DNA of 64,000 bases from an uncultured Pontibacter sp. (lineage in GTDB: Bacteria > Bacteroidota > Bacteroidia > Cytophagales > Hymenobacteraceae), in assembly GCA_947499125.1 (NCBI GenBank), contig CANMMP010000005.1, positions 124,001 through 188,000 on the forward strand. The letters are read 5' to 3'. Shown piece after piece: positions 12,843 to 47,221 of the stretch. The notes beneath the pieces are model-generated. The model was given only the letters and a program-made list of their open reading frames with translations, was not told the DNA's origin and did not search any database. The first letter of the stretch is position 1. Each line of letters starts with the position of its first letter. Made by a program: the position numbers and the translations under genes.

Positions 12843-12890
12843 AGTTTGTGTTGGTGATTGAGAAATGAAGTTAAAGAAAATTAACGATTC

Positions 12891-12978
12891 TAGCGCGGAG
12901 CTTAGATCCGTGACTAAAGTATAATAGCGAATCTGAGATTCGCATCTATAGCTTAGCACGGAAATAACTTCCGCGCCA
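12891..12978 (-). repeat. Three-hairpin REP-like array, left copy
   Basis: An 88-bp block that, read on the minus strand, closely matches the block at 13576-13662. It contains a CGGAA/TTCCG hairpin (12959-12973), a central hairpin GCGAATCTGAGATTCGC (12927-12943) and a damaged third hairpin near 12896-12910. It lies between the membrane hydrolase and the RAYT gene, 43 bp before the RAYT start. Confidence 0.85.
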
Positions 12979-13020
12979 GAAAAATGTAACTATAAATTTA
13001 TCCCTCCCGTGCTATACAGC

Positions 13021-13563
13021 ATGAGTGAGAAGTATAAAGCAAAAGAACCGGACAGAATTTATTTTATTACTACAACTGTGATTCAATGGGCAGATGTATT
13101 TACACGCCGTGAATATTGTGAAATTATCTGTGACAGCATTACTTACTGCCAGCAGCAAAAGAATCTAACCGTCTATGCCTGGTGTATCATGACAAACCAT
13201 GTGCACCTGATCTGCTCATCTCCTAACCTTGCATACATCATCAGAGACTTTAAAAAGTATACTGCCAAAGAAATCTATAGATCTATACAACAGAACCCGC
13301 AGGAAAGCAGAAAAGGATGGCTTTTATGGTTAATCAATTCTGCAGGGGAATTAAGCAGCAAGCACGAAGAATATAAGTTCTGGCAACCAGGCTATCATCC
13401 TGTTCTACTTGATAGTAAAGCCCTGATGGAGCAGAAACTTGACTATCTTCATCGTAATCCGGTTACTGCAGGTTTTGTAGAAGAACCAGAACATTGGTAT
13501 TACAGTAGTGCCCGGGATTATGCAGGAGATAATGGAAGGCTCCCTATAGTTCTTCTACAATAA
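13021..13563 (+). CDS. REP-associated tyrosine transposase (RAYT, IS200-like Y1 fold)
   Basis: The 180-residue protein belongs to the IS200/IS605 TnpA-like group. RIYFITTTVIQWADVF forms the first strand, MTNHVHLICSS holds the HUH metal-binding pair, and DYLHRNPVTAGFVEEPEHW is the family's C-terminal signature and probably contains the catalytic tyrosine. RAYTs nick and join single-stranded REP hairpins and are usually single-copy residents rather than active insertion sequences. ATG 13021 is preferred to an in-frame GTG 12 bp upstream. The gene is bracketed by inverted copies of a three-hairpin element, the expected RAYT substrate type. There is no TnpB, and it is more AT-rich than its neighbours. 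Confidence 0.88.
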   Translation: MSEKYKAKEPDRIYFITTTVIQWADVFTRREYCEIICDSITYCQQQKNLTVYAWCIMTNHVHLICSSPNLAYIIRDFKKYTAKEIYRSIQQNPQESRKGWLLWLINSAGELSSKHEEYKFWQPGYHPVLLDSKALMEQKLDYLHRNPVTAGFVEEPEHWYYSSARDYAGDNGRLPIVLLQ

Positions 13564-13575
13564 TTCTACATTTTT

Positions 13576-13662
13576 TAGCGCGGAAGTTACTTCCGTGCTT
13601 AACTATAGATGCGAATCTCAGATTCGCTTTTATAATATGTCACGGAGCTAAGCTCCGCGGCA
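13576..13662 (+). repeat. Three-hairpin REP-like array, right copy
   Basis: An 87-bp block with three perfect palindromes: CGGAAGTTACTTCCG (13581-13595), GCGAATCTCAGATTCGC (13611-13627) and CGGAGCTAAGCTCCG (13643-13657). It is the inverted counterpart of 12891-12978, with only scattered mismatches. It starts 12 bp after the RAYT stop codon. Confidence 0.88.
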
Positions 13663-13672
13663 GAAGCATAAA

Positions 13673-13706
13673 AAAGCCGCAACTGAACTAAATCAACTGC
13701 GGCTTT
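13673..13706. terminator. Bidirectional intrinsic terminator
   Basis: A 9-bp stem AAAGCCGCA/TGCGGCTTT (13673-13681, 13698-13706), extendable with mismatches, has an A run on its left and a TATACTTTT tail on its right. It sits between the RAYT unit and the 3' end of the mutase large subunit gene. Confidence 0.7.
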
Positions 13707-47001: not shown

Positions 47002-47221
47002 CATACTGGCGCCGGTATCTAACCGGTGCCGCACAGTGCGTGCGAGTTTCCAGACTCACTTAAACGACAGGATGACAGTTTTGTAGTAGCGGATTTTAAA
47101 ACTGCTTGAGGGTTATAGTTCTCAAGCTCCTTATACTTGCTGGTGAAAACACGCAGCAAGGGCGTAAGATATAGGCAGTTCAACCACAAAAAAGTATAAA
47201 TAATAATATAGCTAATAAAGA

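Follow-up and report, generated by a model that had tools for sequence, protein, structure and literature searches.

Which part of a locus is mobile when a gene for a REP-associated tyrosine transposase (RAYT; REP, repetitive extragenic palindrome) lies between two inverted arrays of hairpins, and what would the encoded protein recognize? This question is raised by a stretch of 64,000 nucleotides (nt) from an uncultured Pontibacter sp. (contig CANMMP010000005.1, positions 124,001 to 188,000; G000:C5:124001-188000 in our genome set), hereafter called the window. RAYTs are proposed to be domesticated transposases, and the spread of REPs and of their inverted doublets, the REPINs, is described as still open (PMC8266576). 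The genome containing the window, here the focal genome, was grouped with 49 others in one genus, so that 50 Pontibacter genomes were compared. Pontibacter also accounts for the eleven nearest loci that carry a name. With a probability of about 0.8, we conclude that the locus is a REPtron, that is, a single-copy RAYT gene kept at one locus together with its cognate REPINs. The repeat would be a composite REP of two hairpins, and the REPIN would be the mobile part.

A RAYT gene between two REPINs

The open reading frame spans positions 13009 to 13563 and opens at a GTG, although the ATG at 13021 is the likelier start. Its initial annotation as a RAYT is well founded. The protein matches NCBIfam NF047646 with 111.9 bits (cut-off 80) as well as the REP_Tyr_transpos profile, and has the HuH/Tyr core, of which H60, H62 and Y142 are invariant across 37 aligned proteins. 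It shares the fold of the TnpA-REP structure 4er8 at 17-18% identity. The NHVH and WQ motifs of RAYT subclass 2.6 are both present, and the HuH-Tyr distance is 80, compared to a median of 82 in that subclass (PMC6006769). The tyrosine motif reads YLHRNP, whereas the subclass has YIH[QN]NP and the three paralogues in the focal genome have YIHNNP or YIHQNP.

The blocks at 12888-12983 and 13573-13665, on either side of the gene, are inverted near-copies, as the initial annotation had observed. Their inner arms (12920-12983 and 13571-13634) are complementary over 64 nt at 91%, and their outer arms (12881-12914 and 13639-13672) over 34 nt at 82%. The three palindromes that had been listed occur in that order in both copies, with a G/A mismatch damaging the third in the left one. 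However, these are not three unlike stems: stems 1 and 3 of each array are inverted copies of one hairpin (CGCGGA...TCCGTG). The outer stems are thus a single REP hairpin in opposite orientations, which makes each array a REPIN with the order REP, second hairpin, inverted REP (Table 1). When folded as single-stranded DNA, the two blocks have z-scores of -5.66 and -5.72 relative to 200 dinucleotide shuffles, none of which was as good. The right block folds into three hairpins, and the best fold of the left block is a single long hairpin that pairs its two arms.

Table 1. Features of the repeat system in the window
Feature	Position	Strand	Basis
Left array, REPIN of three hairpins; middle hairpin common to two half-units	12888..12983	.	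inverted copy, model matches, folding
Left array, outer hairpin 1, damaged (one G/A mismatch)	12893..12914	+	half-unit 12889-12943
Left array, hairpin 2 (GCGAATC...GATTCGC), common to both half-units	12927..12943	.	
Left array, gene-side hairpin 1	12956..12976	-	half-unit 12927-12980, minus strand
RAYT / TnpA-REP gene	13021..13563	+	profile, motif and fold evidence; likely ATG start 13021
Right array, REPIN of three hairpins	13573..13665	.	inverted copy, model matches, folding
Right array, gene-side hairpin 1	13578..13598	+	half-unit 13574-13627
Right array, hairpin 2 (GCGAATC...GATTCGC)	13611..13627	.	
Right array, outer hairpin 1	13639..13659	-	half-unit 13611-13664, minus strand
Terminator-like site 3' of mutase gene, outside array	13673..13706	-	consensus scan
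Dispersed half-unit, CCGG type	47005..47059	+	covariance model match within window

The repeat consists of two covarying hairpins

We aligned 49 half-units, picked by hand from 94 rows that include duplicates and spurious matches. They stem from RAYT loci (36), a remnant of such a locus (1) and standalone sites (12). A half-unit begins with the foot CTGG, which is followed by hairpin 1 (GCGC, 5 bp, a 3-nt loop, 5 bp, GTGC), a spacer of about 11 nt and hairpin 2. The spacer is 11 nt long in 40 of the 49, 10 in five and 12 in four, with search patterns that allowed 6-14.

Both stems covary. In total, 95 cells are changed on both sides, compared to 25.7 +/- 3.9 after shuffling (0 of 500 shuffles as high), and only 0-15 cells when the partners are slid by 1-3 columns. 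Double changes affect six of the ten pairs in hairpin 1 and three of the seven in hairpin 2. One pair of hairpin 1, G7.T23, is constant in 49/49, and columns 5 and 25 fail to pair in 23/49. Both arms of hairpin 2 contain GANTC, in the window as in the alignment, and the N covaries, with A or G opposite T or C.

The foot reads CTGG in 36/49 half-units and TGG in 41/49; it is not the GT[AG]G foot known from RAYT-associated REPs. CT precedes the stem in 40/49. Since the Stenotrophomonas TnpA-REP cuts at a CT (PMC8266576), the CT just outside the hairpin 1 stem is a lead for the predicted cleavage site.

Half-units may share their second hairpin. Among the 19 genomes with a near-complete gene, the array on the side of the neighboring mutase gene has two copies of hairpin 2, 13-84 nt apart, in 16, and a single common one in three (the focal genome, G027 and G045).

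Stem covariation would also arise if the hairpins worked in RNA, as bidirectional terminators, mRNA stabilizers or attenuators for the convergent mutase and RAYT genes, with their dispersal incidental. The units inspected are mostly intergenic, and the middle hairpins of both arrays have a terminator-like score on one strand, both of which fit such a role. However, the mutase gene has a terminator-like site of its own outside the array, and an Rfam scan gave two matches, both far under the gathering scores. Moreover, the constant G.T could presumably become G-C if pairing alone mattered, and the type of array tracks the type of RAYT in 19/19 cases (see below). We therefore regard RNA function as unlikely to be the main explanation, while a secondary role of this kind is compatible with the data. 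A PADLOC scan gave no match.

The repeat is dispersed in the genome and at orthologous sites

A BLAST search of the focal genome with a 102-base block returned 16 hits at E <=10, and apart from the two known arrays all had E-values of at least 0.3. The array would accordingly seem unique in its genome. This view was overturned by a covariance model made from the 49 half-units, which found 51 half-units at E <=0.01 in the focal genome. The initial annotation had reasoned that gene and array would not be linked if the unit occurred only here, which is not the case.

Twenty stretches of the focal genome revealed two further types of the repeat: L276-L286 are of a CCGG type, and L287-L295, with GAGTC stems, of a gamma type. 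GGCGC...GTG and nearly the same spacer are retained in both. The 20 stretches covary as well (48 cells versus 17.7 +/- 3.5), in an alignment that was fitted to the model. The gamma copies and many CCGG copies in this genome are single half-units.

In the gamma repeats, hairpin 1 with its GAGTC stems and hairpin 2 are followed by TGGCCCG..AGGGACA, and conservation continues past the model ends. Six CCGG half-units (L280-L283, L285 and L286) have a third hairpin, with a GACGCAA..TTGCGTC core, some 50-70 nt downstream.

Copy counts in the searches of the 50 genomes, the family and the gamma type are lower bounds (115, 38 and 17 candidates scored, respectively). The model matches in 39 of the 50 Pontibacter genomes. 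When G036, which has a gene fragment, is left out, the median number of copies per genome is 42 (4-84) in the 19 genomes that carry a RAYT of this clade and 1 (0-83) in the 30 without (p 4e-6). At the family level, there are matches at E 0.001 in 87 of 150 genomes, representing five of six genera, Pontibacter included. Gamma repeats have BLAST matches in 24/50 genomes, with at least 17 copies in the focal genome.

The site between hisF and hisI, in the his operon, could be compared in 40 of the 50 genomes. A unit is present in 12 and there is no model match in 28. Three genomes have the CGGAA type (G015, G018 and G039), to which G023 partly conforms, and seven have the CCGG type (G000, G004, G007, G011, G013, G025 and G026); G009 has both in tandem. 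These units start and stop at or near CTGG and CCAG. Given filled and unfilled versions of the site, the unit was gained, lost or replaced there.

The gene stays at one locus

The focal type of RAYT occurs in 20 of the 50 genomes, including the fragment in G036. In all 20 carriers it is located between genes for methylmalonyl-CoA mutase and a YdjM/DUF protein (spread over two contigs in G014), and the model matches at the locus in every one.

The initial annotation had suggested a transposable RAYT unit of about 770 bp. The layout, with inverted ends around a relative of transposases, is indeed that of an insertion sequence, and such an element would transpose as a single block of array, gene and array. 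IS200/IS605 elements move as a unit and have copies at several sites. By contrast, the 19 places with at least 58% identity are in 19 different genomes, all of them, like the G036 fragment, at the same locus, and the focal genome has a single copy. The combination of one locus for the gene and dispersed hairpin units therefore argues against a 770-bp transposon, which we consider very improbable.

A single fixed locus is in keeping with a domesticated gene subject to occasional loss. At least three genes look damaged, with an internal stop (G007), a split (G028) or a truncation (G036). The model detects remnants at the locus in five RAYT-less genomes (G018, G029, G030, G035 and G044, weakly in G029 and G035), and two more were judged by eye (G022 and G049). 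The other RAYT-less genomes examined have no remnant at the locus; among all genomes without the RAYT, the mutase gene of G017 was not found, and the far side was out of reach in G034 and G049.

The RAYTs at the fixed locus fall into two deeply separated clades with 11 and 8 members, and the array type matches the clade in 19/19. In the focal clade, all members but G032 (10 of 11) also have at least a REP or half-unit on the side away from the mutase gene. The sister clade of 8 has its array on the mutase side only, with G014 split over contigs. In the mutase gene tree the two clades are mixed, implying at least five changes, and a single clade is rejected (approximately unbiased [AU] test, p 6e-11), although many forks are weak. 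Because the array type tracks the RAYT clade while the mutase tree mixes the clades, gene and array seem to have been replaced together at this locus.

The gene points toward the mutase gene in 14 of the 20 carriers and away from it in six. On the mutase tree, a single "away" clade is rejected (AU p 0.0005); on the RAYT tree the rejection is only marginal (p 0.039). The clade is poorly supported internally and an exchange of cassettes is possible, which makes at least two flips likely but not certain.

Other RAYTs in Bacteroidota

The focal genome has three other RAYTs, 44-51% identical to the focal one. Their flanking hairpins differ in sequence, and their layouts are related: four hairpins occur upstream of both L017 and L018, and a two-hairpin mirror at L020. 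None of these three loci has a covariance model match.

We analyzed 52 of 74 loci, mostly from Bacteroidota, after dropping 11 Pontibacter orthologues and 11 others that are mostly short or partial. Hairpins number 5.4 per kb beside RAYTs, 1.0 in control blocks, which were unmatched for intergenic position, and 0.73 in shuffles. Adjacent hairpins are 4-15 nt apart in 29 of 81 pairs in RAYT flanks, 0/20 in controls and 1/12 in five shuffle rounds. Hairpins of the G.T form, for which lengths of 21-31 nt were allowed and 21 was found throughout, occur at 10/52 RAYT loci and in 4/368 control blocks. Outside Pontibacter, the spacer is not sharply 11. Within these limits and those of the unmatched controls, the results suggest that a fixed spacer may be general across the phylum.

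Individual loci vary. A Tannerellaceae locus (L035) has a clean mirrored hairpin pair, and no hairpin was found on either side of L033, L036, L049, L071 and L083 at the threshold used. In the arrays flanking two Cyclobacterium RAYTs (L057 and L058), several kinds of hairpin follow one another in a repeating order, with as many as six per array. A Rufibacter RAYT (L032) with about 54% identity has one copy of the same hairpin 1 (GCGCGGAAGTTACTTCCGTGC) on either side; hairpin 2 was not seen there.

Relation to known systems

The mirror symmetry around the gene had been taken as unusual. However, a placement between inverted REPs has been published as a hallmark of RAYT genes (PMC2817692). The RAYTs of Nunvar et al. 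2010 likewise consist of an HuH/Tyr gene between two inverted REPs with REP copies elsewhere; gene and REP co-evolve, and orthologues hold their genomic position (PMC2817692). The Pontibacter system differs in that its foot is CTGG, not GT(A/G)G, its REP has two hairpins and some relatives have one-sided arrays. That paper reported no homologues from other major lineages of bacteria.

In REPINs as described by Bertels and Rainey 2011 (PMC3116915), an inverted REP doublet is also the replicative unit and also shows compensatory changes, but each half of the Pontibacter unit also includes, at a fixed distance, another autonomous hairpin, which the halves may share. TIRtrons and double palindromic terminal inverted repeats (PMC3733652) resemble our locus in that RAYT-like genes have long inverted repeats, some of which combine a degenerate REP with an unrelated stem-loop. 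Those composites are from Pseudomonas and derived from GTAG, whereas the Pontibacter repeat is a module that covaries in both stems.

Another close group is Bacteroidetes TnpA-Y1 subclass 2.6 (Bertels group 5), for which atypical flanking structures without GT[AG]G have been noted and the GTAG-recognition region is reported to be non-conserved; a supplement is said to tabulate such sequences (PMC6006769). NHVH, WQ, the phylum, the atypical flanks and the copies in the genome are shared with our system. Absent from the text passages of PMC6006769 considered here are the two-hairpin unit, its spacing, the G.T pair and the REPIN order. The proposal of a new REP architecture in Bacteroidota thus stands as regards a composite two-hairpin REP with fixed spacing, and does not as regards atypical flanks, which were already known. 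A two-hairpin REP of this kind was not described in the available text of the open-access literature searched. In a 2025 REP survey (PMC12306157), a table lists three Bacteroidota genomes, and the excerpts do not mention RAYTs.

Proposed mechanism and points against it

We propose that the RAYT would bind and read the half-unit when it is single-stranded and folded, probably in the template of the lagging strand, and would cleave at the foot of hairpin 1, at the CT just outside the stem. It could then move or copy the REPIN into intergenic sites. The mobile REPIN would be two inverted half-units, with four hairpins, or three after the middle pair had fused. The gene itself would stay at its locus, where the flanking arrays may permit its inversion through recombination between them, and related cassettes might replace gene and arrays.

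Several observations weigh against this proposal. Nine of the 30 genomes without this RAYT carry at least 11 copies, namely G018 (83), G029 (65), G020 (57), G009 (40), G013 (20), G022 (20), G017 (15), G002 (11) and G005 (11). Of these, only G018, G022 and G029 have a remnant at the locus (the locus of G017 was not found). The initial annotation had held that copies spread widely in RAYT-less genomes would break the link between gene and array, and for these nine genomes this concern is borne out. The gamma type, despite its number of copies, flanks none of the four RAYTs in the focal genome, and 17 places are more than 15 kb away. Arrays are one-sided in eight genomes (G004, G007, G010, G023, G025, G028, G032 and G039), in addition to which there are the split G014 and the fragmentary G036. 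A base-exact empty site was sought in 651 kb of G011, G016 and G026, and none was found. The best case is a pair with a difference of about 100 nt; other repeats lie on both sides, and the shorter version has a possible remnant. A second candidate has unrelated sequence at the site. Regions of these genomes (L243-L275) also have dispersed repeats of several hundred to about 1000 bases that contain model matches.

The gamma copies and the copies in genomes without the focal RAYT could mean that another enzyme, either a different RAYT or a host recombinase, moves the units, with the focal RAYT merely located among them. However, the three other RAYTs of the focal genome are flanked by different hairpins at loci that the model does not match, and the focal RAYT correlates with both copy number and array type. 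We consider another enzyme quite unlikely, and prefer the REPtron with its mobile REPIN.

More generally, it is possible, if doubtful, that the substrate of Bacteroidota RAYTs is a bipartite single-strand module. The hairpin with the obligatory G.T would be recognized and cleaved, and the second, at a fixed distance, would be read by the other subunit or by a subclass-specific insertion. REPIN formation, spread, and the flipping and swapping of cassettes would then be outcomes of one two-hairpin reaction.

As far as we have seen, the system is mostly of a known kind. Its new aspects are the two-hairpin module with an invariant G.T, a genome-wide population missed by BLAST, and the replacement and inversion of cassettes at a fixed locus. 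One of the "atypical" structures noted for the Bacteroidetes branch is thereby made explicit. It takes the form of two covarying hairpins with an 11-nt spacer, a fixed G.T and a CTGG foot, which a single covariance model can find although plain BLAST cannot. The locus offers two types of protein, each paired with its cognate array; there are also sites with and without the unit, as well as genomes in which the repeats have outlasted the gene. With these and an explicit repeat, substrate recognition by a non-GTAG RAYT is therefore directly testable.
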